DNA of 64,000 bases. Origin: Scilla litardierei. Its lineage: Eukaryota > Streptophyta > Magnoliopsida > Asparagales > Asparagaceae. The notes beneath the pieces are model-generated. The model was not told where the DNA came from, ran no database searches, and was given only the letters and a program-made list of their open reading frames with translations. Position numbers and translations under genes: made by a program. The stretch spans positions 279,689,871 to 279,753,870 of the forward strand of contig CM061141.1 in NCBI GenBank assembly GCA_030789695.1. The letters are read 5' to 3'. Below, piece by piece: positions 3,311-51,543 of this stretch (its first letter is position 1; the number at the start of each line of letters is the position of its first letter).

Positions 3311-3679
3311 TGATCGCTCCGGGACGTACACCCAAAGAACGGTTGTAGTTTTACCGCAAGCGCACGGTATAGCGGCGAGCGGGTATCGAACACATGGAGG
3401 ACGAATGATCGTGCTTGCTCCTAATCAACCTGGCTATTTAAGAATAGAGAGAATTGCCTTGGGCGATCCTGTCACAATCGTCAGACAAATGTGCGAAATA
3501 TCAAATCAAATAAAGAACGTCTAGGGAGTGGGGAATCCCCGCTACTCACCGTGTTTCATAAATGTGGTTCGTCGGTATCAAAATTGCTAGAATGAGAATT
3601 TGGATGAACTAGTTGCAACTAAATGTGGAACCAAGCTCACGCTCTCGCGCTGTTGCCGGTCTATAGCTATCCTAGGATC

Positions 3680-3970
3680 GGGTCCAATCTCTTGCAAACC
3701 CTAGCCTAGGAAAGCTAGCATTAGGATCAACATCATCGTCCAATTGCGCACCGAGCCCAATCTCTTGCAAACTCGGTCCACAATCTAAATTAGGATAGTT
3801 CCTACCCGTCCAATCTCTTGCAAACGGGTATTGGCACGGAATTGCAACCGGAGATCCTAGTATCGGCCCAATCTCTTGCAAACCGATACTTCGAAAATCC
3901 GACTCCAACCCAATTCAGATTTCTAGGGCTTCCTATCAAATTGGGATCAAATCTCTTGCAAATCCCAATT
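3680..3970 (-). repeat. Five-hairpin array with a constant loop (element B 3' LTR)
   Basis: Five copies of a core whose sense strand reads TTGCAAGAGATTGG (plus strand CCAATCTCTTGCAA, one copy CAAATCTCTTGCAA), each flanked by a different inverted repeat. Plus-strand stems: GGGT/ACCC (3680-3683, 3698-3701), CCGAG/CTCGG (3751-3755, 3772-3776), TACCCGT/ACGGGTA (3803-3809, 3824-3830), AGTATCGG/CCGATACT (3859-3866, 3883-3890) and AATTGGGAT/ATCCCAATT (3939-3947, 3962-3970). The loop is fixed while the stems change but remain self-complementary. The array lies downstream of the TATA-like box, so it would be in the transcript. Confidence 0.85.
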
Positions 3971-4362
3971 GATATGAATACCTAGCTATCCGTAGTAATT
4001 CGATCCCAATCTAATCTCTAATTATTGATTCTAGCACAATTTCTACCAATTTATCACAAATACGAAATTGGGCTTGTAGGGTTCATCCCCACGCCCCAAG
4101 ACGTGGAGACTACTCACAAATCATAGCAATAGCACAAAAATAATCAATGAAATAGACAATGGAATTCATCACAACAATGATATAAACAATAAAAATAGAG
4201 TTTTTGGGGAAGAGAGATGCAAACCAAAGTAGTTCTTCAATTAATCCAACAAAAATCCAAGTTTTTCCCTTCTCCAATCACAAAATAATAAAACTAAAAA
4301 GTAATATCAAAAAGCTGCAAAAAATCTAAGAGATGGCTCTAAAACTAGGGTAAAAACAGGGC

Positions 4363-4369
4363 TTAAATA
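4363..4369 (-). promoter_or_regulatory. TATA-like box of element B LTR
   Basis: Sense strand reads GGGGCTATTTAAGCCC; plus strand TTAAATA. The related element D has GGGGTATTTAACCCC at the corresponding place. It lies between the palindrome cluster and the hairpin array in both elements. Confidence 0.5.
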
Positions 4370-4452
4370 GCCCCAAAAATCGTCCAAAAATCCTGACCAA
4401 AACGCCCCTGCACAGCCTGTTTTCCGCAAATTTCGCTACAGGCAGCGCATCG

Positions 4453-4833
4453 CACTCGGCCGAGTGACAAAAGTCGCTCGGCCGAGTGAAAACCCTGTCA
4501 TTTTCCAGTAAGTCGGGGGCTTCAAGGGTCTTCAGTTCGGAGGCGGCTCGGCCGAGTGAGTTGTCGTCACTCGGCCGATGGCTTTACTGCACTCGGGCGG
4601 ACGCGGTTTACCACTCGGCCGAGTGGGTCTTCTGAAGCTCAGGTGGCCGAAAAACAGTAACTTCGATCTTTTTGAGGGCCTTCGTCTGGGCGCCACTCGG
4701 GCGGACGTGGTATCGTCACTCGGCCGATGTGGTCTCCGTCGCTCGGCCGAGTACACATGGAAAACGTGTCTGAACGGGTCGGCCGAGCAGTGTCTCGCTG
4801 GTCGGCCGAGTGGCTCCTCCACTCGGCCGAGTG
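4453..4833. repeat. CACTCGGCCGAGTG palindrome array in U3 (element B 3' LTR)
   Basis: At least six perfect CTCGGCCGAG cores (first at 4453-4466, last at 4820-4833) plus several one-base variants in about 380 bp. The full 14-mer is its own reverse complement. The array is 60-470 bp upstream of the TATA-like box in element orientation. The same array is present in all four B/D LTRs and again before the env-position ORF of both elements. Confidence 0.8.
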
Positions 4834-5128
4834 GGACACAAAAGATGCCCAATCTGATTGTTTTGGCCTCCTCGTCGCTCCTGCGACGTCCATTCTTCTT
4901 CCGCTCCTCTCCAACAGTAAAATATCCCTCGGGGAGGTCGTTGGTGGCCGTGTAGAGTAAGCGCGTCTCGAGATCACTCCTAATCGCGCCAAATCACCTG
5001 AAATGCGACAAAAACAACAAATCGTGAAAAGCATCGCAATATCGTCGATATATCGTGAAAAACATGATTTGGGCGATCTAAATGGCATGCAAATCCACGG
5101 GAAAAAGGTGTAAAATATGGAGTGATCA

Positions 5129-5143
5129 AAATCCCCCAAGCTT
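5129..5143 (-). promoter_or_regulatory. Polypurine tract of element B
   Basis: Sense strand AAGCTTGGGGGATTT ends exactly where the 3' LTR starts (TGATCACTCC). This fixes the minus orientation and identifies 3311-5128 as the 3' LTR. Confidence 0.85.
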
Positions 5144-7085
5144 GCCTCTTACTCGTCCTCGAGGAAGATAAGTAAAAAGGCGAACCCGGTGGATTCGGAA
5201 AACGAAACGGCGAAAAACGAAAAAAAAATGAAAAACGAAGAAGAATGAAAACCAAATGAAAATAAAGACGAAAGAAAGAAGCGAAGAGGTAGGGTGCTAG
5301 ATCATTTTCTCAGGACGTGGGTTTCACTTACTCTTATAGCATGCACCGAATGAGAAATACATGTCAAAGAATCTTATTTTGATATCATAGTATAATAGTG
5401 CAAATAGAAATAGAAAACCCACGAACATTGATATAATCATGAAGAACGGAATGATCTTAAAATTAACATTGCATGAATCATTTAAAGCGGTATACAAATC
5501 ACAGATCACACACTTTTCAATTGAACGCTTTCTATCTGGAGTATAAGAGTATCACACTATAGAATAGAGAGAATGGAAAAGTTTGGATTTCATGAAATGA
5601 ACGCTAGGCTTAGATTTCTGGATTTCGTGAAGCTAGAAACAATCTCACCGAGTATAGAATATTACTTAGCCTAGGTTGTCGTGCGATGTCAAGTAGTCAC
5701 TCTCTCACACATCAATGGATCCCCTCCCCCAAGCTTATCTATAAGCGTGGTGGCACAAAAATATTTACATCCCCATTTTTATATAGCTCCAAAAGCAAAG
5801 AAGAGAAAGAAGAAAGGAAGAAAGTGAGATGGGATCTTTTATTGAGGATTTTTCCTCTTTTCTCTTTTTTTTTCCTTTTTTTCTTCTTTTTTTATAAGCA
5901 ATATATACACAATGATCCCAACTCAGAGAGAGATAATGATATACAAGAATGTTTTTCTCTCTTTATATATTTATTTTTTTTGGAATAGGGGATTTGGAGC
6001 TAGGAATAAATAGCGGGGGAAATGCCATAAAATAGAATCACTAAGGGGAGATTAACCAATGATTTTTTAAAAGTAGAGAAATGATGTTCAAGATTGGTGG
6101 AGAAAGAAATATATATAACTCTCGGTTCACTCTATAAGACATGCACGACAACTTCAGCAGGGTAATCTAATCTACTCAGTTTCGATCACAAAAAAGCTAA
6201 CTAATCCAGATATATCATAGCTAACATCATTCAATCATCCCGAAGTGAAGTGTACAATTCATGCATATAGAAGTGATATAGGAAAAGAAATCGGTACTCC
6301 AGATATAGGCATTCAATGCGTGAATCTTGGTGTGTTTTCTGTGATATCATACATATGAATATTCAGGCTCAGTTAATAATAAAACTTCATCCATTTTCAT
6401 GCGGAGAAAGTGTGGGTTACTATTCTAGATGCAAAGCAAGTCATAGCATATGATATCAGAAATAAAATCTAAGACATGACAAATATAGCATGCATATAGA
6501 ATAAGCTAACTCCACGTAGACATCATCACAGAAAATTCATCTCTAGCATGAGATGAAAAAGGAAAGAAATAAAGATAAGAAAAATAAAACTATGCAATGC
6601 GGCACACAGAGAAATAAGAAAAACGTGATGCATGGCAAAATGAAAGAAAATAAAGAAAAATGAGTGCAAAAGTGAAAAGAAACGGTGTGAAAAACTAAAA
6701 ATAAAGGTGGCAAATCGAAAAAGAAACGTGAGAACTCACTCCCCCAAGCTAAAGTGCACAGTGTCCTCAATGTGCAAAGTGTGGCACACAGAGAGACAAG
6801 TAATGAGAGGGGCAAGTGAGGATGCATGCATGATGGAAAGAAAAAAGATAATAAAACGAAAAATAAAGAAACGAAAATATGATGCGGATATGATGCATGC
6901 ACAGATATGAGTGATACGAGTATAAATGGGTCACCAAAAGCTCTCCCTCTCTCCCAAAAAAGATATATAAAGATACGGCAAATGAGAATCACAAAATAGT
7001 GAGGGGAGGGGGGGTCAAAAAGGCATCAGGACCCAGCAGAAACGGGCAGCACAACGGCAAAAGGAATCGATGGCATCAAGGGTGC
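5144..7085 (-). other. Non-coding 3' region of element B with Athila-conserved motifs
   Basis: No ORF that I can support; AT-rich with pyrimidine/purine runs. It holds two extra purine tracts like the polypurine tract (plus strand 5724-5736 CTCCCCCAAGCTT and 6738-6750 ACTCCCCCAAGCT). The second sits in a conserved context: the sense strand has an ACATTGAGGACAC-type run, then AGCTTGGGGGAG and GTGAGTTCTCAC. Athila elements of many plants have a similar motif between the env-position ORF and the 3' LTR. Element D has the same three tracts in the same order. Confidence 0.6.
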
Positions 7086-9290
7086 CTAGGAAGGTGGTGC
7101 TGCGCCGTCTCCGTCCTGAGGCGGAGGTGGTGGTGGTGGTGGTGTAGGCTGCTGAGCTGGGGTGGGCGTGGAAGTGGAAGCAGGTCTAGTGTGTGCGGAA
7201 GTGTGAGTGGGAACCTGCTGGGTGGGTGGGGGTACGCGCGGAAGACGCTCTAAGATCTGTGTCAGGCAGTAGTGAATCTGAGGGATCAGGGCAGAGCGTC
7301 CAGCCATCGTAGAGACGGTGGAGGACAGGGTCCTAAGGTCAGCTCTAATACCACTCACCGCCAACTCAAGAGCACGTATGCTCTGCAGTACAGTGTCGGG
7401 CGGGGGTGGTGCAGAGGGACGCACCGGTCTAGGCTGCGCGGGGCGGGGCTGGCGTACGCGAGTGGAGTATGTAACGGGCTCAGCAGGGAAGGGGACAAAA
7501 GGTGCCGCGCCAGCAAATGTGGGCCTGGCCTTAGTGTGAGGCCGGGGCACCGGCTGGTGAGAAGTAGAGGCAGTGGCAGCAAAGGAAGCGTGCAAAAGAG
7601 GCAACGAGGTGGCAAGAGAGGTCAGTGGCCCAGAAGTGTGGACAGACGCCACGACGCTCTCGGAGAATACGGCGGCTGTGGAGACAGAGGACTCTACCGC
7701 TGGGGCGGAACTGTGTGGACCAAAAGACGCAATCCCAGCGGAGATCATGCTAGCCATGGTCTCCACGACCGCGGCAAACGAGGGCGCTCCACTCTCGACA
7801 AAGGTAGGCGGGCGCTCGGGGAGTGCGGAGCAAAGAGGCTCCACAGACAGAGGGCCAGAGGTGGCAGCGGGAGTGGTGGGGACAGCCTCGAAAGTGGTGA
7901 CAGTGGTGGAAGTGGGCTCAGCAAAAGTACTCTCGACACTGACAGAGGTGGGGACAGAAGTGTCAGGAGCAGGGGAAACGTCAGGAACAGGCTGAGGGGC
8001 CACATGGTCGACGGGGTCGGTAGCAGGCTCGGCAGGGTGTGCAGCAGGGTCTGCGGGAGCAGCCTGGGCAGCGTGGGCAGCGTGGGCCTGCTCGGCCTCC
8101 TCGGCCTCGAGCACGTACGCAGCGGGGATGATGACATCCATCGCTGGGAGCCAGTCAACGTGGGCCGGTGCAATCTGGGTCCGAGCTGGGCTCGGGAGAA
8201 TCATGTAGTCGGCACCGAAAGGGCCGTGCAACCAGACCCAATGACGCTCACCATGCGGACGCAGCATCTTCATCCGGGCCATAACGTCTATCGACAAGGA
8301 AGTGGGGCCCGGAACGCGTCGCAGGTCGTCAGGTAGGTCCTCGCCGGTCATCATGGTAAGCAGGGTGATCAGACCGCCGCAGCATATCGGTGAGCGAGCG
8401 CCCACCGACACAATGATACGGTCTAAAAACCAAGCCGCAATGTCGATCACGACGGCGGGGACAAGCTCATCTCCATCCCTAGATAGAGCTCTGGGACGTG
8501 TCATCGCGTAGAGCATGTAAAGCTCTGGCGTAGACATCGTGCCCGGCTCATATCTGGCCAAAAAGGTGGTCGCCATAAGGCGCTGGGCAATACGTAGGCA
8601 GGGGTGGACAATGGTCGAGGCCTTGGCCCTACTAGGGTCAAAGGCGGCGTGGTGGCCTGTGATCCGGGCCCAGAAGGCACCGACGTCGAAAGAAGGTGGG
8701 GGGATGTGGGTAGGGCCGTAACCGCGATCGGCTCCGGGGACTGCGGGCCATGAGAAGAACGCTCTCATCATATCAAGAGTGACCTGGCACTCTCGATCCA
8801 TGAACCTAAATGAGCATCCCTCATCGGTCCGGGCGATCGAACTCAAAACCTCAAGTGTCGGGCGGGTAAAAGTATCCGCCGACACCTGGAAAAAATCTCA
8901 CCAGCCCACGTTGTCGTACAACATGAGCATCCCCTCAAGTACCCCCAGGCGTCCTAGGTCAGCGAGGTGTGCAAACCTGGAGGGTACGATCGAGCGCTGG
9001 GAGATACGCTCGAAGACGGCGTGGTGTGCGTCGTCTCGGAACGTAATCCCGAGCGGCCCGACCAGTGGAGCCGGTGGTGGTGGCTGTGGATCGGCAGGGA
9101 GAGGCTGTGCGGGCTGTGGGTGCACTGCAGGCTGTGCGGGGTGTGCGGGGCCTGCAGGCTGTGCTGGGTGTGCGGGGTGTGTGGGGGACGGTGGAGGAGA
9201 GACCTCCAACTCGTGGGAGGGGCCGGCATCATCCGACCGCTTCCGCTTGGCGGAAGCTCTCTTCGACCGCGGCCGTGTCCGGGGCGGCAT
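7086..9290 (-). pseudogene. Env-position ORF of element B (ATHILA ORF-1-like / plant transposon protein), one in-frame stop
   Basis: Real ATG at 9290-9288; TAG at 7088-7086; about 734 residues if the single internal TGA at 8900-8898 is ignored. N-terminus: basic stretch with RPRSKRASAKRKR (residues about 5-17, nuclear-localisation-like), then Pro/Ala/Gln-rich repeats. A conserved core follows (about residues 80-330) with FERISQRS, FAHLADLGRLGVLEG, YDNVGW, then FRFMDRECQVTLDMMRAFF, and ICCGGLITLL further on. The C-terminal third is Pro/Ser/Thr/Val-rich with a short coiled-coil-like stretch and a poly-Pro tail. Element D has R where B has the TGA, fitting CGA to TGA decay at a methylated CpG. 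The family is known from the Athila lineage as a protein of unknown role in the env position. I see no signal peptide or membrane segment, so envelope function is not supported. Confidence 0.75.
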
Positions 9291-9469
9291 ATCGGCCCCG
9301 AGCGCGCGCCGAAAAGTGAAAAGTGCGGCGTGTGCACAAAGAGTGGAAAGAGTTTACCCAAACACGCCGCGAGTGCTAAGCAGTGGAAGCGTGCGAAGTC
9401 CGCGCCTCCACGAAGTCCTGAGCAGCCCGTAGAAGCTCCCCTGAGCTCCCCTAAGCTCCAAAAAGCAAC

Positions 9470-9579
9470 CTGCGCATGGAAAAGCGATATCAGCGAGTAA
9501 TAATCAAAATGTATGGAGCAATAGGGGTATAACAGATAGATATGGGAATTGATTCGGGTTAGGGGTTCGATTAATACAC
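9470..9579 (-). other. Putative 110-bp intron in the 5' leader of the env-position ORF (element B)
   Basis: Sense strand has donor GATCC|GTGTATT at 9579 and acceptor CATGCGCAG|GTTGC at 9470. Element D has GATCC|GTAGACC and TTTGATTTGCAG|GCT at the matching place, also exactly 110 bp apart, although the sequence between differs. Conserved length and conserved GT-AG ends support splicing of the leader. No transcript evidence is available here. Confidence 0.55.
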
Positions 9580-9834
9580 GGATCCTCAAAAACTACGCAA
9601 AAAGAGGAGAAAATGGTGAAAACGAGCGAACCGGAGGTGATCGGAGGCAAGGCGCCGGCGGCGACTCGGGCGAGGCGTCGGCGGGCTCGGCCGGCGGTGG
9701 CGGGCCGAGCGGCGGCGGGGCAGCGGTGGTCGGGCGAGTGAGGGTCGAGCGAGGGGGAATCGGTCGTGGGAGCTGAAGGGGCGCGGGCGAGAATTGGGGG
9801 ATTTTGCGTTTTCGAATTCCGCGCCCCCCTTCAG

Positions 9835-9845
9835 CTTATATATAG
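9835..9845 (-). promoter_or_regulatory. Internal TATA box before the env-position ORF (element B)
   Basis: Sense strand CTATATATAAGC, about 10 bp downstream of a CACTCGGCCGAGT palindrome. Element D has TTTATATATAAGC in the same relation to the same palindrome, with the connecting bases CGTAAC conserved. It would start a transcript whose leader contains the putative intron and which encodes the env-position ORF. Confidence 0.65.
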
Positions 9846-9855
9846 AAAAGTTACG

Positions 9856-10181
9856 ACTCGGCCGAGTGACGTTCTCACTCGGCCGAGCGAGGCAAATAAA
9901 AATTTCTCCCCGATATCGCTTCGGTCGAGTGGATTTGCCAGCCTCGGCCGAGTGGAGTAAGTCCATTCGGCCGAGTGACTCAAGCTACTCGGCATGACTC
10001 GCCCTAGGAGGGTATCCGTTTTACTCGACCGAGTGAAAATGTAGACTCGGCCGAGTAGCAGTTCTAATGAAATGAGGAAAATAGACAGAGAGTTGGGTAC
10101 AGCAGACTTCCCTCGTTCGTGAGCGGCTCGACCGGACGAACTTCTGGACTCGGCCGAGTGACTAGTATACTCGGCCGAGTG
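9856..10181. repeat. Internal CACTCGGCCGAGTG palindrome array (element B)
   Basis: Six perfect or near-perfect ACTCGGCCGAGT copies (for example 9856-9867, 10169-10180) with decayed copies between. It lies directly upstream, in element orientation, of the internal TATA box, mirroring the layout of the LTR promoter. Confidence 0.75.
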
Positions 10182-10450
10182 AGCCTTGTGTTCTGCTGTT
10201 TGTCTTCGTTTGGGCTCTAAACTCTGTCTTTCTTCCTCCAGTCGATTTTCATGCTCCTCCTAAGCGTCGAAGGCCTTCTTGGGGTGCTCCTCATTGTCTC
10301 GTTCATCCTCCTCATGATGGATCTACCTATCTCCTCTCCTGTCAAGAAAAATAGGACCCGTTATCACAAAATTTTTGGTCGGATGACTCAAAACACTAAA
10401 AATCTCTAAAACAAAAATAAAGAAAAAGTAAAAATAAAGCAAAAACCGTC

Positions 10451-10471
10451 GGGTTGCCTCCCGACAAGCGC
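10451..10471 (-). promoter_or_regulatory. Conserved post-pol motif of Athila elements (element B)
   Basis: Sense strand GCGCTTGTCGGGAGGCAACC, shortly after the pol stop codon. Element D has the same motif with one change at 25016-25036, and a close variant (GCGCTTGTTGGGAGGCAACC) is common downstream of pol in plant Athila-type elements. Function unknown. Confidence 0.6.
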
Positions 10472-10510
10472 TCGTTTTAGGTCGTGAGCTCGACCCCCTA
10501 AAATTTTCAA

Positions 10511-13500
10511 TCAATGCGGGATGTTTGGTGCATATGAGATGCACCCGTCAAACTTGCCGGGGAGCGCGCTTGGATTTGGACGTGGCGGCGTAGCGTGCTC
10601 CCTCGGAGGTCTCTTGTCTCGAATAGTGTTGGGGGGAGGCTCCCCCAAGCTAGCATTTGCCCCGGTCAACGGCTTAACCGGCGATGCCGATTTCCGTACC
10701 GGCGGAGCTTTCTTTGGAGACTTTGATTTCGAGAGCTTGCAGAGCTCTCGAATCCTTGCGACATCAGCGTCGCCTTCATCTTCATCAGTGGAGAAGTCGG
10801 GGGAATCATCATTATTGTCTTCATGGCCTAAATCCGGGCCTTCTTCAAATTCTTCATCAAAAAGGGCGCCAATTGAGTGAGGAATCGTCTCCTCTATCAC
10901 CTCATCGAGGAGGTCCATGAGATCTTCCGACCGTTCTTTAAGCAAATATACCCTATTGGTTTCGCCCGTCGGGATTCCTCCGGAATAGTGCTTGAGCCTT
11001 TGACCATTTACTTTGAACGTGGAACCGTCCTTGCTCTCCAACTCGAATGCTCCTCCCGGTTGTATATGCTTGATGGTGAAAGGTCCGGACCAACGTGACC
11101 TCAACTTACCGGGAAATAGTCGGAGCCGGGAATTATAGAGCAAGACCTTGTCTCCTACTTTGAAGTCCGTGACGGTAATGCGGGCATCGTGGAGAATCTT
11201 AGTCCTTTCTTTGTAAATTCTTGAGCTTTCGTAGGCGTCTCTTCTTATCTCATCAAGCTCGTTGATGTCCAAGAGTCGCCTCACCGCCGCACTCTTGTAG
11301 TCGTAGTTAAAGGTCTTGATGGCCCAATATGCGCGGTGCTCCAACTCCACCGGTAAGTGGCAAGCCTTCCCATAAACTAGACGGAACGGTGTGGTGCTGA
11401 TGGGGGTGCGAAAGGCCGTGCGATAAGCCCATAGGGCGTCGTTTAACTTCATTGACCAATCCTTTCTAGACCGATCCACGGTTTTCTCGAGAATTTGCTT
11501 GATCTCTCTATTTGAGACTTCCACTTGGCCGCTTGTCTGGGGGTGATAAGCCATGCCAACTCTATGATTTACCCCGTACTTCTTTAGCATGGCTTCAAAC
11601 TTGTTCTCTATGAAGTGGCTTCCCCCGTCGCTTATCAAGGTACGCGGCACTCCAAAGCGTGGGAAGATATTTTGCTTGAAGAACTTGGAGACGACCCTTG
11701 CATCATTAGTAGGAGTGGCAATTGCCTCCACCCATTTGGAGACGTAGTCGACGGCCAATAGGATGTATTTGTTGCCATTGCTCGATGGAAATGGTCCCAT
11801 GAAGTCTACTCCCCAACAATCAAAAAGCTCAATTTCTTGGATGGGCCTCATTGGCATTTCATTGCGCTTGGAGATATTCCCGGTCCGTTGGCATCTATCG
11901 CACCCTTTTACAAAGTTGTGGGTGTCTTTAAACATTGTCGGCCAGAAGAACCCGCTCTGCAAGATCTTAGCGGTGGTTTTAGAGGCGGCATGATGTCCCC
12001 CGCATGGTAGACCGTGGCAATGCAAAATGATAGACGTCGCCTCCTCTTTAGAAACACACCTACGAATGACACTATCCTTGCATATCTTGAAAAGGTAAGG
12101 ATCTTCCCAAAAGTAGCTACGGACCTCATGCATAAATCTCCTCTTTTGTTGCGTGGACATCCCATGCGGTTTGATTCCGCAAGCCAAGTAGTTGACGAAG
12201 TCCGCGTACCAAGGTACTTCCCCGGTCCTTACCGCATATAGCCTCTCATCAACAAATGTGTCATCAATAGGTAAGCTCTCATCCTCCTTGTCGCGAATGA
12301 GCCTAGATAAATGATCCGCCACGACATTGTCTGTACCCTTCTTATCTCTGATCTCTAGGTCGAATTCTTGCAACAAGAGTATCCACCTAATCAACCGGGG
12401 TTTGGCCTCCTTCTTGTTTAAAAGATACTTCAATGCCGCATGGTCGGTGTGGACAATCACCTTGGAACCGAGGAGGTAGGAGCGAAACTTCTCTATAGAA
12501 TAGACGACCGCTAGAAGCTCCTTCTCGGTAGTTGTGTAGTTTTTCTGTGCGTCATCCAATGTCTTACTTGCGTAGTATATCGCATGAAGCTTCCTATCTT
12601 TCCTTTGTCCCAATACCGCTCCAATGGCTTGGTCGCTAGCATCGCACATTAGCTCAAAAGGGAGGCTCCAATCCGGCGGTTGTATGATAGGCGCTGAGAC
12701 TAGCGCTTCCTTCAAGGTGTCGAAAGCTTGCAAGCATTCTCCTGAAAAGTCAAAAGGAACATCTTTAGCGAGCAAGGAAGTAAGAGGTCGGGCAATCGAG
12801 GCGAAATCCTTGATGAAGCGGCGGTAAAACCCCGCGTGACCAAGGAAACCTCTAATGCCCTTGACATTAATAGGAGGAGGAAGTTTTTCGATTACCTCAA
12901 TTTTTGCTTTATCTACCTCGATTCCTCTTGAGGAAACAAGATGTCCGAGAACTATACCTTCCGTTACCATGAAGTGACACTTCTCCCAATTGAGAGTGAG
13001 ATTGTTTTGTTGGCACCTTTTTAGGACTTTAGTGAGATTTTCCAAGCAAGAGTCAAACTCACTTCCGTAAACCGAGAAATCGTCCATAAAAACTTCCATA
13101 ATGTTTTCAATATAATCGGAAAATATGGATGTCATACATCTTTGAAAAGTGGCGGGAGCATTACAAAGGCCAAACGGCATCCTACGGTATGCATAGGTGC
13201 CATAGGGACAAGTGAAAGTTGTCTTTTCTTGGTCATCTTCGTGCAAAGGGATTTGGAAGAAACCCGAATACCCGTCTAGATAGCAAAAGTATTTATGCTT
13301 CGCTAGGCGTTCAAGCATTTGATCAATGAAGGGCAACGGGTAATGGTCCTTTCGGGTGGCTTTATTGAGTTTCCTATAGTCAATGCACATTCGCCATCCC
13401 GTGACGGTGCGTGTAGATATGGGCTCACCTTTTTCATTGTTTATAACCGTCATCCCTCCCTTCTTGGGAACGACGTGAACGGGGCTAACCCACCTACTGT

Positions 13501-14389
13501 CTTAGATAGGATAAATAATACCGGCTTCTAGCAATTTTAGGATTTCTTTTTTAACCACCTCCTTCATGTTCCGGTTTAACCGCCTTTGAGGCTCAATGGA
13601 GGTGGCATCGGTATCCTCCAAATGGATCCTATGCGTGCAAAGCCTAGGGCTTATCCATTTTAGATCGGAGATAGTGTAGCCCAGGACATCCTTGTGGCTC
13701 CTAAGAACGTCTAGGAGTTTTTCAAGTTGATCTTGTGTGAGGTGGGAATTGACTATCACCGGGTAAGTTAGTTTATTACCCAAAAAGGCATACCTTAGAT
13801 TCGGCGGTAATTGTTTAAGCTCTACCTCAGGTGGCGCTGCTCCTTCCACTTCATCGGCTCGCATGAGTTCGACTTTCTCCTTGTCGTCCAGGTTTAGCTC
13901 ATGTTCAGGTGGCATGCTTTCTTGTGACGAGTCAGACTCGCTACTCAGTGAGGATGAGGCATCGAAATAGGCGCCCTCCGATTCAGGGCTAGCATCGCCA
14001 AAACCTTCACTCTGCTCCAGTTCGTACCTGGAATCAAGAAACACATCAGACGATTCATAAAAACAAGAGTGAGCGTCATAGAGTGTAACTCCCTGATCGT
14101 CGGTTTGCTCGAAGGGTTCTTCGGGAGCATAGTGTTCTTCGACACTCGCTCTATTGTCTTCGAAATACAATTTGTCGTCGACCACGTCAACTCTGACATT
14201 GCCTCCGATAGTCCCCTCCGGAGAGATTTGGTCCATCACAAAACTAGCAAATAGTTGTTCGTCGGGGTCCTTGATATCAATAGCAAATGCTCCGGTAGCG
14301 TGGACCTCGTCAACAAGTTCCTTAAGGAGGTCTGTGAAGGAGTCATAGTCTTCTCGACTGAGTTCCATTATTGGCAGTGCATCCTCCAT
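10511..14389 (-). pseudogene. pol of element B: PR-RT linker, reverse transcriptase, RNase H, integrase; one in-frame TAA
   Basis: ATG at 14389-14387 (MEDALPIM), the first ATG after the PBS. It is open to 10511 (about 1292 codons) except for one TAA at 13504-13502, between IIYPI and [16 protein letters not shown], where Athila pol normally continues without a stop. [26 protein letters not shown] and the catalytic FMDDF are intact. RNase [12 protein letters not shown] and [10 protein letters not shown]. Integrase: zinc finger from [11 protein letters not shown] to CDRCQ, then catalytic D (WGVDFMGPF), D (LISDGGSHF) and E ([10 protein letters not shown]), then the C-terminal SRWSGPFTI region and an acidic/basic tail ending SYAPNIPH. 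No gag domain and no DTGA-type protease precede it. If the stop is read through or absent in sister copies, this would be an enzyme donor lacking capsid and protease. Confidence 0.85.
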
Positions 14390-14445
14390 TCTCCCTGTTA
14401 AGATCTTTTGCAAAATACGGGGAGAATATGCAAATAGGGCTCAGC

Positions 14446-14463
14446 TCCCCGGCAACGGCGCCA
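14446..14463 (-). promoter_or_regulatory. Primer binding site of element B
   Basis: Sense strand TGGCGCCGTTGCCGGGGA, six bases after the 5' LTR. This is the typical Athila primer site (usually assigned to tRNA-Asp). Element D has the same site with two changes. Confidence 0.8.
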
Positions 14464-14469
14464 AAAACT

Positions 14470-16287
14470 TGATCGCTCCGGGACGTACACCCAAAGAACG
14501 GTTGTAGTTTTACCGCAAGCGCACGGTATAGCGGCGAGCGGGTATCGAACACAGGGAGGACGAATGATCGTGCTTGCTCCTAATCAACCTGGCTATTTAA
14601 GAATAGAGAGAATTGCCTTGGGCGATCCTGTCACAATCGTCAGACAAATGTGCGAAATACCAAATCAAATAAAGAACGTCTAGGGAGTGGGGAATCCCCG
14701 CTACTCACCGTGTTTCATAAATGTGGTTCGTCGGTATCAAAATTGCTAGAATGAGAATTTGGATGAACTAGTTGCAACTAAATGTGGAACCAAGCTCACG
14801 CTCTCGCGCTGTTGCCGGTCTATAGCTATCCTAGGATCGGGTCCAATCTCTTGCAAACCCTAGCCTAGGAAAGCTAGCATTAGGATCAACATCATCGTCC
14901 AATTGCGCACCGAGCCCAATCTCTTGCAAACTCGGTCCACAATCTAAATTAGGATAGTTCCTACCCGTCCAATCTCTTGCAAACGGGTATCGGCACGGAA
15001 TTGCAATCGGAGATCCTAGTATCGGCCCAATCTCTTGCAAACCGATACTTCGAAAATCCGACTCCAACCCAATTCGGATTTCTAGGGCTTCCTATCAAAT
15101 TGGGATCCAATCTCTTGCAAATCCCAATTGATATGAATACCTAGCTATCTGTAGTAATTCGATCCCAATCTAATCTCTAATTATTGATTCTAGCACAATT
15201 TCTACCAATTTATCACAAATACGAAATTGGGCTTGTAGGGTTCATCCCCACGCCCCAAGACGTGGAGACTGCTCACAAATCATAGCAATAGCACAAAAAT
15301 AATCAATGAAATAGACAATGGAATTCATCACAACAATGATATAAACAATAAAAATAGAGTTTTTGGGGAAGAGAGATGCAAACCAAAGTAGTTCTTCAAT
15401 TAATCCAACAAAAATCCAAGTTTTTCTCTTCTCCAATCACAAAATAATAAAACTAAAAAGTAATATCAAAAAGCTGCAAAAAATCTAAGAGATGGCTCTA
15501 AAACTAGGGTAAAAACAGGGCTTAAATAGCCCCAAAAATCGTCCAAAAATCCTGACCAAAACGCCCCTGCACAGCCTGTTTTCCGCAAATTTCGCTACAG
15601 GCAGCGCATCGCACTCGGCCGAGTGACAAAAGTCGCTCGGCCGAGTGAAAACCCTGTCATTTTCCAGTAAGTCGGGGGCTTCAAGGGTCTTCAGTTCGGA
15701 GGCGGCTCGGCCGAGTGAGTTGTCGTCACTCGGCCGATGGCTTTACTGCACTCGGGCGGACGCAGTTTACCACTCGGCCGAGTGGGTCTTCTGAAGCTCA
15801 GGTGGCCGAAAAACAGTAACTTCGATCTTTTTGAGGGCCTTCGTCTGGGCGCCACTCGGGCGGACGTGGTATCGTCACTCGGCCGATGTGGTCTCCGTCG
15901 CTCGGCCGAGTACACATGGAAAACGTGTCTGAACGGGTCGGCCGAGCAGTGTCTCGCTGGTCGGCCGAGTGGCTCCTCCACTCGGCCGAGTGGGACACAA
16001 AAGATGCCCAATCTGATTGTTTTGGCCTCCTCGTCGCTCCTGCGACGTCCATTCTTCTTCCGCTCCTCTCCAACAGTAAAATATCCCTCGGGGAGGTCGT
16101 CGGTGGCCGTGTAGAGTAAGCGCGTCTCGAGATCACTCCTAATCGCGCCAAATCACCTGAAATGCGACAAAAACAACAAATCGTGAAAAGCATCGCAATA
16201 TCGTCGATATATCGTGAAAAACATGATTTGGGCGATCTAAATGGCATGCAAATCCACGGGAAAAAGGTGTAAAATATGGAGTGATCA
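14470..16287 (-). repeat. Element B 5' LTR
   Basis: 1818 bp, collinear with 3311-5128 at a constant offset of 11,159. It carries the same palindrome array (15612-15992), TATA-like box (15522-15528) and five-hairpin array (14839-15129). It lies next to the PBS, so it is the promoter LTR for B's genomic transcript. Confidence 0.93.
14839..15129 (-). repeat. Five-hairpin array with a constant loop (element B 5' LTR)
   Basis: Copy of the array at 3680-3970. All five stems are intact. Base differences between the two LTRs in this interval mostly fall outside the stems; one is in the last loop (ATCAAAT against ATCCAAT). Confidence 0.85.
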
Positions 16288-20274: not shown

Positions 20275-20563
20275 TGATCACTCCATATTTTACACCTTTT
20301 TCTGCTTGTTTGCATGCCATTTAGATCGCCCATATCGCGTTTTTCACGATTATTCGACAATATTACTTTTCACGATTTCTTGTTTTTGTCGTATTTCAGG
20401 AGATTTGGAGCGATTTGGAGTGATTCTGAGATGCACCCACTCCGGAGTGTCATCTGTGACTCTTTTGAGGGGAATTCTACGATTGGAGAGGAGTGGAAGA
20501 AGAAAGAACGTTGTAGGAGTGACGAGGAAGCTAAAATACGAAGATTGGGCATTTTCAGCATGC

Positions 20564-20932
20564 CACTCGACCGAGTGAAGGAGACACTCGGTCGAACATC
20601 GACAACCCGCTCGGCAGGCCAGATCGGACACGCAGCAGATTGAATATCAACGTGCACTCGGCCGAGCATCGCCAGACCACTCGGCCGATCACGGAGACAC
20701 CACTCACCCGAGTGGCATCACGACGACGGCAAGCAAAAATCCCGAAGTTACTGTAATCCGTCAGTCAGCTCCCGAGTCCCGACTCAGCCGAGTGAAGAAA
20801 TCCCTTCGGCCGAGTGAAGAAAATCCCTTCGGCCGAGTGACTCCCGAGGAGACGACCCCCAAAAGTCCAGACTTACTGGAATCCGTCAGGGTCCGTCACT
20901 CAGCCGAGCGACATTTGTCACTCGGCCGAGTG
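20564..20932. repeat. CACTCGGCCGAGTG palindrome array in U3 (element D 5' LTR)
   Basis: A series of perfect and one-base-variant copies of the 14-bp palindrome, from CACTCGACCGAGTG at 20564 to a perfect copy at 20919-20932, about 90 bp upstream of the TATA-like box. Confidence 0.75.
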
Positions 20933-21017
20933 AGCCGCGCTGCCTGTAGCGTAAAGTGCGATTTTCAAGCTGCACAAGGGGCAATTTTGTCACAGTTTTT
21001 TGGGCGATTTTGGGGGG

Positions 21018-21024
21018 TATTTAA
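21018..21024 (+). promoter_or_regulatory. TATA-like box of element D 5' LTR
   Basis: GGGGTATTTAACCCC; the core is TATTTAA. Same sequence at 44976-44982 in the 3' LTR and a close relative in element B. Confidence 0.5.
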
Positions 21025-21414
21025 CCCCAGATTTTAACCTAGTTTGAGCTTTTTCATACTTTTGGCATCCCTTTTTTTATTACTTTTTAGGAGATTAGAT
21101 TTAGTTCTTTGGAGAGAGAGATAAAAGTGTTGATTTGTTGGATGCTATTGGAACTTCACTGGTTTGTCTCTCTTTCTATCAAAACTCTCATTTTTATTGA
21201 TATATTGTCTATTGCAATGATTTCTATTGATATTTCTATTGAATTTCTAATGATTTGCATTATGAATAGTGAGTAGTTTTATCGTCTTAGGGCGTAGGGA
21301 TGAACCCTACAAACCCTATTTCTAATTTGTGATGAATTGGTGAAATTCTTGCTAGAATTGATTAGGGTTAGTTTGGGATTGATTTAATACGAATAGCTAG
21401 GGATTCATACCGAT

Positions 21415-21704
21415 TGGGATTTGCAAGAGATTGGATCCCAACTCGATAGGAAGCCCTAGAAATTCGAATTGGGTTACAATTGGGTTTCTCTGGAATCGGT
21501 TTGCAAGAGATTGGACCGAAACTGGGGTTTTCGATTGTAATTCTATACCAATACCCGTTTGCAAGAGATTGGACGGGTAGGAACTATCTCAACCTAGGTC
21601 GTAGCTCGAGTTTGCACGAGAGTGGGCTCGAGATACGATTGAACGATGATGTTGTTCTTCGCGCTAGCTTGCCTAGGTTAGGGTTTACAAGAGATTAGAC
21701 CCTA
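21415..21704 (+). repeat. Five-hairpin array with a constant loop (element D 5' LTR)
   Basis: Stems in order: TTGGGAT/ATCCCAA (21415-21421, 21435-21441), TCGGT/ACCGA, TACCCGT/ACGGGTA, CTCGAG/CTCGAG and TAGGGT/ACCCTA (21679-21684, 21699-21704), around loops matching TTGCAAGAGATTGG (copy 4 is TTGCACGAGAGTGG, copy 5 TTACAAGAGATTAG). These correspond one to one with the five hairpins of element B. In the fourth, a C-G pair of B is T-A in D, a compensated change. Confidence 0.85.
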
Positions 21705-22076
21705 CCCTAGGTTTGCTATAGACCGGCAATAGCGCGAGAGCGTGAGCTTGGTTCTACATTTAGTTGCAACTAGTTCACCTGAATTTCAAGTCTAGCAATT
21801 GTGAAACCTACGAATCACAATGACGAGATACGTTTTGCAGCGGGGATTCCCTATCCCTAGGCGTTTTTATTAATTTGATATTTTCTTTATACAATTGAAC
21901 GACTGTGTCCGCTTTATTACGAAAATTTCTCGACTGGTCTTATAGCCAGGTGAATTGAAGAAGACACTGTCATTTGCTCTCCTCGTGTTCAATACCCGCT
22001 CGCCGCTACACTGTGCGCTTGCGGTAAGACTAGCGAGTCTCGTCTCGGGTGTGTATCCGGGGCACGATCAAGTTTT

Positions 22077-22094
22077 TGGCACCGTTGCCAGGGA
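22077..22094 (+). promoter_or_regulatory. Primer binding site of element D
   Basis: TGGCACCGTTGCCAGGGA, six bases after the 5' LTR; an Athila-type primer site differing from the B copy at two positions. Confidence 0.78.
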
Positions 22095-22211: not shown

Positions 22212-24182
22212 ATGTACACGAGATCCATAGCGGACCCCGAAGAAATACTATACGACCCGAAGATCGAACGTACATTGAGGAGGATCAGAGCGGAGAGGAG
22301 ACTCGACACGGAAGGGAATTTTATGACCCATCCTGAGATTGCCGAAGAATTGGCGGCACAAATGGCGAGGATCATTTTCATTAGAGATAGGCTTCGGCCT
22401 AAGCCTTCCTCCACGACCTCGTCCATAGCTATGCCGGAGTTGGTGGCCGACAAAAATTTCGAGTTGAAGACTGGATTGGTAGTTCTGATGCAGCAAGACC
22501 CTTTTCATGGGAATTCCCATGAAAACCCTCATTACCACATCCAGCTCTTTTTATCAAAATATGCCACCTTCCAAATGTCGGGCGTCTCCATAGATGCTAT
22601 CAGACTGTGCCTCTTCCCCTTCACACTCAAGGACAAGGCCTTATATTGGTTGAGGATGCAGGCTGATGGAATCTTCACCACTTGGGATGAATTGGTGAGT
22701 GCCTTCGTCGACAAATTTTATCCGCCCTCCAAGACGGTGAAGATAAGAAGTGCTCTCATGTCCTTCAAGCAAGGACCTCGGGAGACTCTATATGAGGCGT
22801 GGGAGCACTTCAAGGACTTGCAGCATCAATGCCCCCATCACAGCATAGAGGATTGGGAGCTTGTCCACAGTTTCTACAATGGACTCCAACCGGGCACAAA
22901 ACAGATTATTGATGCTACCGCCAACGGAGCCATTTTGTCAAAGACCCTCGATGAAGCTACGGCCTTGCTAGAGGAGATGGCCTCCAACAACCAACAGTGG
23001 GGCGACGAGAGAGGACATTCTTCGTCCTCCTTGAAGCCCACAAGTATTTATGAGGCCAAGGCCGTGGCTGAGCTTGCTAGAAAATTTGACTCTCTCCACA
23101 AGGTAGTGGAGAGATTGGAGAAATACATTACCGAGCCACATGGAGCTCCTTCTACACCCGCACCGACAAACCATATGAGTGATTGGCAAGACCAATCCCA
23201 AGCCATGTATGTAGGAGGAGAGCATGGAGAAGGAGCTTTGGAGCAAATTCAATATGTTGCGGGGAATTTCGGATATTGGGCCAACCCGACCGCTAGAAAC
23301 CATCCGGGTTTTTCCTATGCTAATAATGATGTTTCCTTGAATCCCCCGCCACAACAACCTTCTCAAGCTCGGGGTCCACCACCACAACCGAATTATCAAC
23401 CAAGGGAGCCACCGCAACAAAACTTCCCACCTATGCAACAAGTGGGACCTTATAGGCCACCCGGGTATAATCTAGGTTGGAGAAATCCCAACCCTCCGCA
23501 AACTCAACCATGTTCGGATTTTGAAGCTAAGGTTGAGGAGTTTATGGTGGAGCAGAGAAAGATTAACGCCACGTTGAAGGCGGGACAAGATTCTCTTACC
23601 ACCGTCATCGCTCAAATTGGGGAGCAACTTGCGTTGCTCAATAGAAACAACCAACAATTGCCGGTACAACCCGAGCCAAATCCACGGGGCACATCCGGCC
23701 ATATCAACGTGGTTGTTGCGGTTACGACAAGGGGTAGGAAGGATACCACTCCCGTCATGACTCAAGTCAAGGAACCCATGGTGGAGATTCTAGAAGAGTG
23801 CGAGCCGGCAATTGAGGTGGAAAAGGAGAGGGAGTCGCAAGAAGGAGCAAAATCTAGAGTGGAGGAACCTATAGATGAGCGCCGATTCATGCCACCGGTG
23901 CCTTTCCCTCAACGGCTAGCTAGAGCCAAGATCGAGAAGAGGCTAGCCAAGTTTCTCGAATACTTGAGAGGGGTGAGCCTCAATATCCCTTTCCTTGATG
24001 CCATAGTGGAAATCCCATCCTACACGAAGTTCTTAAAGGACTTGATTACGGGAAGGAAAAGGAAAGAGAAGATCATGCTCGCGGAACAACGAACTTGGTT
24101 CACTAGGAAGGAAAAGGAGCCCGCCAAATTTAAAGATCACGGGAGTTTCCGGATTCCTTGCACACTCGGAGGCGTCCCCTAA
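22212..24182 (+). CDS. gag polyprotein of element D (Athila type)
   Basis: 656 residues from ATG 22212 to TAA 24180. The gag core lies at about residues 90-260: MQQDPFHGNSHENPHYHIQL, then FPFTLKDKALYWLRM and FVDKFYPPSKT, a match to the plant retrotransposon gag family. The middle is rich in Pro and Gln (residues about 380-430), and no CCHC zinc knuckle is visible, as is usual for Athila gag. The final TAA sits in a conserved phrase (RIPCTLGGVP then QKALVDLGAS) where Athila gag normally runs on into protease, so the stop is probably a point mutation, although it leaves gag itself intact. Part of an element with deleted pol, so it could act only for other copies. Confidence 0.8.
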   Translation: MYTRSIADPEEILYDPKIERTLRRIRAERRLDTEGNFMTHPEIAEELAAQMARIIFIRDRLRPKPSSTTSSIAMPELVADKNFELKTGLVVLMQQDPFHGNSHENPHYHIQLFLSKYATFQMSGVSIDAIRLCLFPFTLKDKALYWLRMQADGIFTTWDELVSAFVDKFYPPSKTVKIRSALMSFKQGPRETLYEAWEHFKDLQHQCPHHSIEDWELVHSFYNGLQPGTKQIIDATANGAILSKTLDEATALLEEMASNNQQWGDERGHSSSSLKPTSIYEAKAVAELARKFDSLHKVVERLEKYITEPHGAPSTPAPTNHMSDWQDQSQAMYVGGEHGEGALEQIQYVAGNFGYWANPTARNHPGFSYANNDVSLNPPPQQPSQARGPPPQPNYQPREPPQQNFPPMQQVGPYRPPGYNLGWRNPNPPQTQPCSDFEAKVEEFMVEQRKINATLKAGQDSLTTVIAQIGEQLALLNRNNQQLPVQPEPNPRGTSGHINVVVAVTTRGRKDTTPVMTQVKEPMVEILEECEPAIEVEKERESQEGAKSRVEEPIDERRFMPPVPFPQRLARAKIEKRLAKFLEYLRGVSLNIPFLDAIVEIPSYTKFLKDLITGRKRKEKIMLAEQRTWFTRKEKEPAKFKDHGSFRIPCTLGGVP

Positions 24183-44232: not shown

Positions 44233-46031
44233 TGATCACTCCATATTTTACACCTTTTTTCTGCTTGTTTGCATGCCATTTAGATCGCCCATATCGCGTT
44301 TTTCACGATTATTCGACAATATTGCGATGCTTTTCACGATTTCTTGTTTTTGTCGTATTTCAGGAGATTTGGAGCGATTTGGAGTGATTCTGAGATGCAC
44401 CCACTCCGGAGTGTCACCCGTGACTCTTTTGAAGGGAATTCTACGATTGGAGAGGAGTGGAAGAAGAAAGAACGTCGTAGGAGCGACGGGGAAGCAAAAA
44501 TACGAAGATTGGGCATTTTCAGCATGCCACTCGGCCGAGTGAAGGAGTCACTCGGCTGAACATCGACAGCCCGCTCGGCGCCAGATCGGACACGCAGCAG
44601 ATTGAATATCAGCATGCACTCGGCCGAGCATCGCCAGACACGGCCGATCATGGAGACACCACTTACCCGAGTGGCATCACGACGACGGTAAGCAAAAATC
44701 CCGAAGTTACTGTAATTCGTCAGTCAGCTCCCGAGTCCCGACTCAGCCGAGTGAAGAAATCCCTTCGGCCGAGTGAAGAAAATCCCTTCGGCCGAGTGAC
44801 TCCCGAGGAGACGACCCCCAAAAGTCCAGACTTACTGGAATCCGTCAGGGTCCGTCACTCGGCCGAGTGACATTTGTCACTCGGCCGAGTGAGCCGCGCT
44901 GCCTGTAGCGTAAAGTACGATTTTCAAGCTGCACATGGGCAATTTTGTCACAATTTTTTGGGCGATTTTGGGGGGTATTTAACCCCAGTTTTTAACCTAG
45001 TTTAGGAGAGCTTTTTCATACTTTTGGCAGCCCTTTTTGATTACTTTTTAGGAGATTAGATTTAGTTATTTGGAGAGAGATAAAAGTGTTGATTTGTTGG
45101 ATGCTATTGGAACTTCATTGGTTTGTCTCTCTTTCTATCAAAAATCTCATTTTTATTGATATATTGTCTATTGCAATGATTTCTATTGATATTTCTATTG
45201 AATTTCTAATGATTTGCATTATGAATAGTTTTGAGTAGTTTTATCGTCTTAGGGCGTAGGGATGAACCCTACAAACCCTATTTCTAATTTGTGATGAATT
45301 GGTGAAATTCTTGCTAGAATTGATTAAGGTTAGTTTGGGATTGATTTAAAACGAATAGCTAGGGATTCATACCGATTGGGATTTACAAGAGATTGGACCC
45401 AACTCGATAGGAAGCCCTAGAAATTCGAATTGGGTTACAATTGGGTTTCTCTGGAATCGGTTTACAAGAGATTGGACCGAAACTGGGGTTTTCGATAGTA
45501 ATTCTATACCAATACCCGTTTGCAAGAGATTGGACAGGTAGGAACTATCCCAACCTAGGTCGTAGCTCGAGTTTGCACGAGAGTGGGCTCGAGATACGAT
45601 TGAACGATGATGTTGTTCTTCGCGCTAGCTTGCCTAGGTTAGGGTTTGCAAGAGATTGGACCCTACCCTAGGTTTGCTATATACCGGCAATAGCGCGAGA
45701 GCGTGAGCTTGGTTCTACATTTAGTTGCAACTAGTTCACCTGAATTTCAAGTCTAGCAATTGTGAAACCTACAAATCACAATGACGAGATACGGTTTGTA
45801 GCGGGGATTCCCTATCCCTAGGCATTTTTATTAATTTGATATTTTCTTTATACAATTGAATGACTGTGACCGCTTTATTGCAAAAATTTCTTGACTGTTC
45901 TTATAGCCAGGTGAATTGAAGAAGACACTGTCATTTGCTCTCCTCGTGTTCGATACCCGCTCGTCGCTACACCATGCGCTTGTGGTAAGACTAGCGAGTC
46001 TCGTCCCGGGTGTGTATCCGGGGCGCGATCA
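44233..46031 (+). repeat. Element D 3' LTR
   Basis: 1799 bp, TGATCACTCC to GGGCGCGATCA. Palindrome array 44528-44891, TATA-like box 44976-44982, hairpin array 45376-45665. Differs from the 5' LTR by scattered substitutions and small indels. Confidence 0.92.
45376..45665 (+). repeat. Five-hairpin array with a constant loop (element D 3' LTR)
   Basis: Same five hairpins as 21415-21704. The third stem has decayed by one base (GACAGGTA for GACGGGTA) and the first lost a base pair, while the fifth loop is TTGCAAGAGATTGG here and TTACAAGAGATTAG in the other LTR. Confidence 0.82.
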
Positions 46032-46036
46032 AGGGC
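46032..46036 (+). repeat. Target-site duplication of element D (right copy)
   Basis: AGGGC, matching 20270-20274. Confidence 0.93.
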
Positions 46037-48251: not shown

Positions 48252-48340
48252 TTATGAGTCTTTTTAATAAAATATCGTCATTTCTGCACTTTTCCAAACC
48301 ATGATGTCTCCACTTGAGTATTTCAGTCCGAACACACAAG
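48252..48340 (+). other. Spacer between A integrase and the tandem array
   Basis: Short AT-rich leader after the stop codon. No feature seen. Confidence 0.5.
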
Positions 48341-51300: not shown

Positions 51301-51543
51301 CTTCAAGAGCTCTAGGTCAGGGCCAACCCTCGCCACCCAAACCAGAGAAGTGCACAGACCGAGCTACGCGCTCACTCCCTCCCTCAAGAACTCTGGGGTA
51401 AGGCCAACCCTCGTCACCCAAACCAGAGAAGGGCACGGGCCGAGCTACGCGCCTGCTATGCCCCTCAAGAACTCTGGGGCAGGGCCAACCCTTGCCACCC
51501 AAACCAGAGCAGATACGGGCCGGGCTACGCGCCCGCTCCCCAC
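48341..51543 (+). repeat. 80-bp tandem array (about 40 copies) in the 3' region of element A
   Basis: Each unit starts ACTCTGGGGCAGGGCCAACC and also contains AAACCAGAGAAGGGCACGG and CGAGCTACGCGCTCG. Spacing is 80 bp at most steps (for example 48501, 48581, 48661), with a few one-base indels in C runs. Within a unit CTCTGG and CCAGAG can pair over about 38 bp. The consensus has no stop trinucleotide in any plus frame, which creates long overlapping ORFs that I do not regard as genes. 3' tandem repeats are known for Tat/Ogre elements and can seed satellite DNA. Confidence 0.93.

Follow-up and report, generated by a model that had tools for sequence, protein, structure and literature searches.

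A compensated array of five hairpins with near-identical tips in the LTRs of plant Athila elements, a candidate packaging or dimerisation domain of the RNA leader

In retroviruses, GACG tetraloops take part in packaging and regulate heterodimerisation (available text of PMC516450). The psi hairpins that carry them in alpha- and gammaretroviruses and in Maedi-Visna are like the array described here, as both are leader hairpins with a constant four-base tip. They differ in that the array has a GAGA tip within a constant 14-nt module, is present in five copies and belongs to plant Ty3/gypsy elements; also, a zinc knuckle was not found in the D Gag. In plants, BARE2 of barley (Ty1/copia) is unable to produce Gag, and BARE1 particles take up its RNA; the two have conserved packaging and dimerisation signals (available text of PMC3735527). 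Because the Gag-less BARE2 is packaged by BARE1, plant elements share packaging signals in trans. BARE1 and BARE2 are Ty1/copia elements, whereas the Athila elements analyzed here comprise one kind without gag and another without RT, and no hairpin array was found in the available part of the BARE account. The 5' leader of Ty1 (TIPIRT) is structured, like the array, and has packaging and dimerisation roles, whereas repeated identical tips were not found in the available part of its description (PMC5454406). No hairpin array was found in the accessible text of two Athila descriptions (PMC6317226 and PMC6911290), nor was anything resembling the array found among the open-access papers listed by literature searches. 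We class the array, with its five near-identical tips, as a candidate domain for packaging or dimerisation in the leader of plant Athila elements.

The window, the whole stretch of DNA that was analyzed, is 64 kb long and contains two Athila-type elements, B (minus strand) and D (plus strand; Table 1). Both contain the ATHILA ORF-1 domain PF03078 (8.1e-10 in D and 2.6e-08 in B), and by this domain content they are assigned to the Athila lineage (Ty3/gypsy, OTA). The primer-binding sites of B and D both match what we take to be the 3' end of tRNA-Asp. Elsewhere in the window, about 40 copies of an 80-base unit form a tandem array (48337-51541) after an ORF with integrase domains.

Table 1. Features of elements B and D and of their hairpin arrays (B5 and B3, 5' and 3' LTR of B; D5 and D3, 5' and 3' LTR of D; ends of the B arrays were converted from the columns of alignment A1)
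Feature	Position	Strand	Remark
B element 3' LTR (B3)	3311..5128	-	99.4% identity to 14470-16287
B element 5' LTR (B5)	14470..16287	-	terminal CA, followed by primer-binding site
D element 5' LTR (D5)	20275..22070	+	aligned block extends to 22072
D element 3' LTR (D3)	44233..46033	+	95.6% identity to 20275-22072
B interior	5129-14469		
D interior	22073-44232		
B primer-binding site	14447..14463	-	TGGCGCCGTTGCCGGGG; after 5' LTR
D primer-binding site	22077..22093	+	TGGCACCGTTGCCAGGG; after 5' LTR
TATA-like TATTTAA, B5	15522..15528	-	LTR position 760
TATA-like TATTTAA, D5	21018..21024	+	LTR position 744
Array with outer stems, B3	3664..3992	-	cores 3948-3961, 3868-3881, 3810-3823, 3757-3770, 3684-3697
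Array, B5	14823..15151	-	five hairpins
B5 unit stems	15075-15151 (1), 14998-15070 (2), 14962-14989 (3), 14901-14944 (4), 14823-14876 (5)		
Array, D5	21413..21706	+	30-nt units at 21413, 21493, 21551, 21604, 21677
Array, D3	45375..45667	+	units at 45375, 45454, 45512, 45565, 45638
D unit 4	21604..21633	+	core TTGCACGAGAGTGG; inner CAC/GTG instead of CAA/TTG
Sixth hairpin just downstream of array	14798..14809	-	GCGC-GAGA-GCGT; from RNAalifold
B pol ORF (RT, RNase H, integrase)	10511..13453	-	
D gag ORF	22212..24182	+	PF03732

The core TTGCAAGAGATTGG was matched 20 times in the 64 kb with at most two mismatches, five times in each of the four LTRs and, at this threshold, nowhere else in the window. 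Fourteen matches were exact, three had one mismatch and three had two; 100 shuffled sequences gave a mean of 0.86 matches and a largest count of 5. An earlier note on this DNA had reported the core five times per LTR. Five units are present in each, but all five are exact only in B5. The note had also matched the five hairpins of B and D one to one, which agrees with their common spacing: 80/58/53/73 in B5, B3 and D5, with a first interval of 79 in D3. The array itself is longer than the 3680..3970 first given, about 330 nt with its outer stems (3664-3992 in B3). A covariance model of the unit (R1) found exactly the 20 units in the 64 kb at E up to 5, scoring 29.4-45.4 bits. No Rfam family matched any array above its gathering score. 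The sixth hairpin, also capped by GAGA, is identical in B5, B3, D5 and D3 and shows no covariation; it carries single changes in three arrays from elsewhere in the genome (L194, L181 and L046).

Each core caps its own inverted repeat, with 9, 9, 7, 7 and 4 contiguous pairs in B5 and 7, 5, 7, 7 and 6 in D5. When flanks were exchanged between units (20 combinations per family), no more than four contiguous pairs formed, a number that B unit 5 merely equals. Summed over the units, the fold energy of own flanks ranked first of 120 permutations in both B5 and D5. In a single exchange, the left flank of unit 3 in B5 paired better with the right flank of unit 4 (-16.6) than with its own partner (-13.7). 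Runs of at least seven pairs round a 14-base centre, those of the units among them, were counted at 8 of the 1768 centres of B5 and at 8 of the 1748 of D5; those elsewhere in the LTR never lay at the repeated core. The stems are thus different and self-complementary, as had been described, but they exceed the reported 4-9 bp. In alignment A1, which comprises the four arrays in 405 columns, RNAalifold extended units 1, 2, 4 and 5 to long interrupted stems, with -132 kcal/mol and 9 of 127 pairs changed on both sides. The sliding alifold energy gave z from -2.1 to -8.6 for array windows; since U3 windows also reached -4 to -5.8, this energy by itself is not specific for the array. The compensated change of CCGAG/CTCGG in unit 4 of B to TCGAG/CTCGA in D had been read correctly, and a walk outward from the cores gave five double changes in this unit, one of them inside the core. 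The third stem, reported as unchanged, is so in B3, B5 and D5, but one of its pairs is broken in D3.

Covariation between the two families was compared with null expectations. With the B5 fold, D5 kept 128 of 140 pairs (null 116.2) and broke 12 (null 23.9); nine double-substituted pairs were kept against a null of 2.58, a number reached in 0 of 5000 null sets. With the D5 fold, B5 kept 132 of 150 pairs (null 123.7, P = 0.006), including eight double-substituted pairs (null 2.27, P = 0.0002). Control columns, in U3 and after the array, had no excess of double changes: two in columns 1-400 (null 2.5), three in 401-800 (null 3.1) and two in 1481-1845 (null 3.4). On the B fold, columns 771-1120 had 15 double changes against 5.3 in the null; sliding windows on the D fold disagreed, and a structure over the whole leader was therefore dropped. 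Ten units, nine of them distinct, were also aligned with one another as a family (A2). Here 8 of the 11 pairs varied on both sides, as in 2 of 500 shuffles, and the covariation score was 0.616 versus 0.206, a value that none of 500 shuffles reached. A chance origin of the array was rejected on the shuffled cores, the flank permutations and this unit covariation.

Further copies of the array were collected from the genome. The B array returned 1969 first-look candidates and the D array 2582, sets that may overlap, and the best 40 of each were scored. R1 made 315 matches in 67 loci that had been collected as other copies, and among these were second arrays, belonging to other families and lying beside the copies. 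The L194 and L181 arrays (family E-like) are 88-90% identical to B and 85-87% to D. The L046 array is 88% identical to D and 80% to B; it represents family F, of which one copy was seen. A search with the L194 (E) array returned 3475 first-look candidates, the best 40 of which were at 97-100%, itself included.

B5, D5, L194, L181 and L046 were aligned (A4: B, D, two E-like and one F). With structures drawn from B and D, which favors kept pairs, 15 of 100 pairs were double-changed (shuffled mean 6.6; 0 of 500 shuffles as high), and 95.4% of cells paired versus 92.8% after shuffling. Structures slid by 1-3 columns gave only 0-3 double-changed pairs. The number of further pair types was not extreme (47 of 500 shuffles as high). 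The double changes lie in units 1, 2, 4 and 5, whereas unit 3 is nearly invariant. The double changes between B and D, the unit family and this five-sequence test strongly support the claim of a conserved structure with compensated changes and argue, from sequence comparison, for a conserved secondary structure of the sort that a psi-type signal requires.

We also compared fixed differences with variants private to single copies. The commonest states of B and D differed at 21 pairs, 16 of which were standard in both families; the counts were 6 of 9 for B/E and 8 of 14 for D/E. Private variants left a standard pair in 25 of 56 cases (B 9 of 14, D 12 of 30 and E 4 of 12). The difference between fixed B/D changes and private ones (Fisher P = 0.02; 32 B, 32 D and 10 E rows) refers to the copies closest to the queries and to structures drawn from B and D, with the same leaning to kept pairs; B5, B3 and D5 were entered twice, which dropped their own private changes. 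In a separate count, the B copies had 23 changes at paired places, 14 of which kept the pair and 9 broke it. The comparison of fixed with private changes fits selection while copies are active and neutral decay afterwards.

The tip was more constant than the stems. In 30 B and 30 D copies, only 2 of the 64 B/D differences in commonest letters fell within the 70 core positions of the 401 columns (P = 2e-4), which confirms that the tip is conserved far beyond its surroundings. Together they make up one paired change in unit 4, from CAA/TTG to CAC/GTG, and both letters of CAC/GTG were kept in 29 of 30 fetched D copies, a set that includes those of the window, and in 10 of 10 E copies. The unit 4 core of D and E thus reads CAC-GAGA-GUG in place of CAA-GAGA-UUG. 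GAGA itself is present in all 20 units of the window.

This paired change suggests an inner helix under GAGA. The core had been described as a 14-base loop; its constancy stands, but it can pair inside, as it did in 14 of 20 units in single-unit folds. We have provisionally replaced the plain loop by a tip with probable inner pairing, in which 5'-UUG CAA GAGA UUG G-3' would form a 3-bp helix with a GAGA loop and a small internal loop beneath. The inner mini-hairpin CAA-GAGA-UUG is likely in the predicted folds, still with some reserve: it is nearly iso-energetic with a U.G-extended stem, and its pair probability was 0.56-0.68 in eight of nine strings. For D unit 4 the inner pair probability was 0.23-0.24, and an alternative fold was better (-10.2 versus -8.9). 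A single inner pair is seen to change. A genome pattern for a double change at the neighbouring inner A-U pair, beside C-G, had 23 matches versus 11 for the reversed control.

In B and D the array lies between the TATA-like box and the primer-binding site. The conserved TATTTAA is about 400 bases upstream in B5 and D5, in line with the reported order of the two, and the LTR ends about 350 bases downstream. From this position the array should be within the RNA leader. In the predicted fold of the leader (about 1060 nt), the four pairs next to each core had probabilities of 0.93-1.0 in both families.

The coding content of the elements was then compared. No gag family was found in the scanned ORFs of B, and the first 3552 bases of its interior (RT to integrase core) had no blastn match in the D interior, where the sole RT match was a nested non-LTR element. 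The D gag ORF contains, in antisense (22740-22846, minus strand), a borderline Rfam snoR71 match of 41 bits against a cut-off of 40. Seven further interiors were read in part, between two arrays taken as the LTRs of one element, which makes nine elements with B and D; the stretches end before the LTRs, so their gene lists are partial. Gag was matched in L175, L177 and L178 (B-like LTRs) and in L210 and L211 (D). Of pol, these five matched only the portion of the B ORF from residue 844 on (858 in L210), and no RT was found in the parts matched of these five or of D. L179 matched pol residues 46-980 and L176 residues 656-980 (the C-terminal third), with no gag match in the stretches read. In the parts read, there are thus two kinds, gag without RT and pol without gag, and both carry LTRs with the array. 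The restart at residue 844, common to B-like and D gag-type elements, suggests that the gag-type form may be older than the B/D split. Elements in which no gag was found (B, and L179 in the stretch read) have kept the array, and we infer that they depend on Gag in trans. The array in both kinds fits packaging in trans and does not prove it.

We also looked for relatives outside this genome. Viral contigs gave 21 single 16-mer matches and 5 two-unit matches. Genome contigs gave at least 118 two-unit stretches, and the 80 inspected by title were bacterial or archaeal. R1 was run on 70 of at least 144 outside loci; it matched only among the 21 loci chosen by 16-mer, with a best score of 24.6 bits versus 29.4-45.4 for the window units, and these matches were taken as chance. 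The two-unit pattern occurred on several contigs of one bacterial genome both in Luteimonas huabeiensis (L059, L071, L082 and others) and in Cupriavidus gilardii (L057, L070 and others), which suggests unrelated repeats.

Our leading explanation, to which we give about an even chance, is that the array is a structured leader domain acting as a multivalent packaging signal, through which a single Gag could gather RNA of either kind. The sequences show that the structure is conserved and covaries, that the tips are constant and, in the parts read, that gag and pol are split; that the array is transcribed, that Gag reads it and that it serves packaging are all inferred. Five hairpins, each with its own stem, would present one common apical module; the stems would be free to change as long as pairing stays, and the tips would be constrained. 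Many equal tips on different stems suggest multivalent binding of one partner, and the tips would most likely be repeated docking sites for Gag. Several weak contacts would sum to selective packaging of element RNA, perhaps with dimerisation. As pol-without-gag and gag-without-RT elements have the same array, one Gag pool could collect both RNAs. A pattern search found no CCHC knuckle in the D Gag. The usual RNA-binding module of Gag is thus missing, and any RNA contact would be of another kind; the avidity of five sites could offset this lack. A further step, possible but on balance doubtful, is a two-part system in which incomplete gag-type and pol-type Athila elements of related families persist together, the shared five-hairpin tag loading both RNAs into one Gag particle.

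Alternatively, the structured leader may act on translation, by ribosome shunting, internal entry or repression, or on the stability of the RNA, with the tips binding a host protein and no part in packaging. A leader of about 1060 nt with seven ATGs between TATA-like box and LTR end in B5 and nine in D5 would be hard for plain scanning, and the pol kind, which makes no gag, also retains the array. Five copies of one tip, however, favor multivalent binding over a single structural role, and we consider this explanation rather unlikely.

Still less likely is a feature of the DNA, in which inverted repeats in the LTR are bound by a protein or extrude as cruciforms. Covariation keeps palindromes alike on both strands. 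The antisense strand had eight double changes in the array columns (null 2.59, P = 0.002), and most stems formed in antisense folds too. The excess of G.U over A.C pairs in fixed geometry was weak, at 3:1, 9:6 and 15:6 for depths of 8, 12 and 16 pairs. The U3 of these LTRs, moreover, carries many palindromes like CACTCGGCCGAGTG (e.g. 4450-4830). Windows of U3 that begin at columns 201, 251 and 301 kept their pairs (P 0.001-0.013) with no excess of double changes; the kept pairs are presumably these palindromes, which, because pairing is kept without such an excess, are more probably DNA sites than RNA structures. The array itself speaks against a DNA feature: a protein reading one constant site would need no unit-specific self-complementary flanks, and the long interrupted stems of units 1, 2, 4 and 5 look like RNA helices.

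Kissing loops that dimerise through the TTGCAA palindrome of the tips are improbable as the general reason for the array. The self-complementary TTGCAA does occur in most units, and palindromic loops link retroviral RNAs (PMC516450, available text). In unit 4, however, the A that completes it is absent from 29 of 30 D copies, 10 of 10 E copies and the sole F copy, which weakens this explanation, and the second unit 4 change, TTG to GTG, is accounted for by inner pairing. A decayed tandem duplication without function is hardly credible: one motif does occur five times in about 330 bases, but Tandem Repeats Finder reported no array at the site, flanks differ from unit to unit, and B/D differences kept standard pairs more often than private variants did.

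For plant LTR retrotransposons other than BARE, little is known of which RNA is packaged (PMC3735527, available text). A repeated hairpin with a constant tip, which compensated changes have preserved in several families of a single genome, lends itself readily to testing. As a candidate multivalent packaging signal, the array may account for the multiplication of elements that lack gag as well as of those that lack RT.
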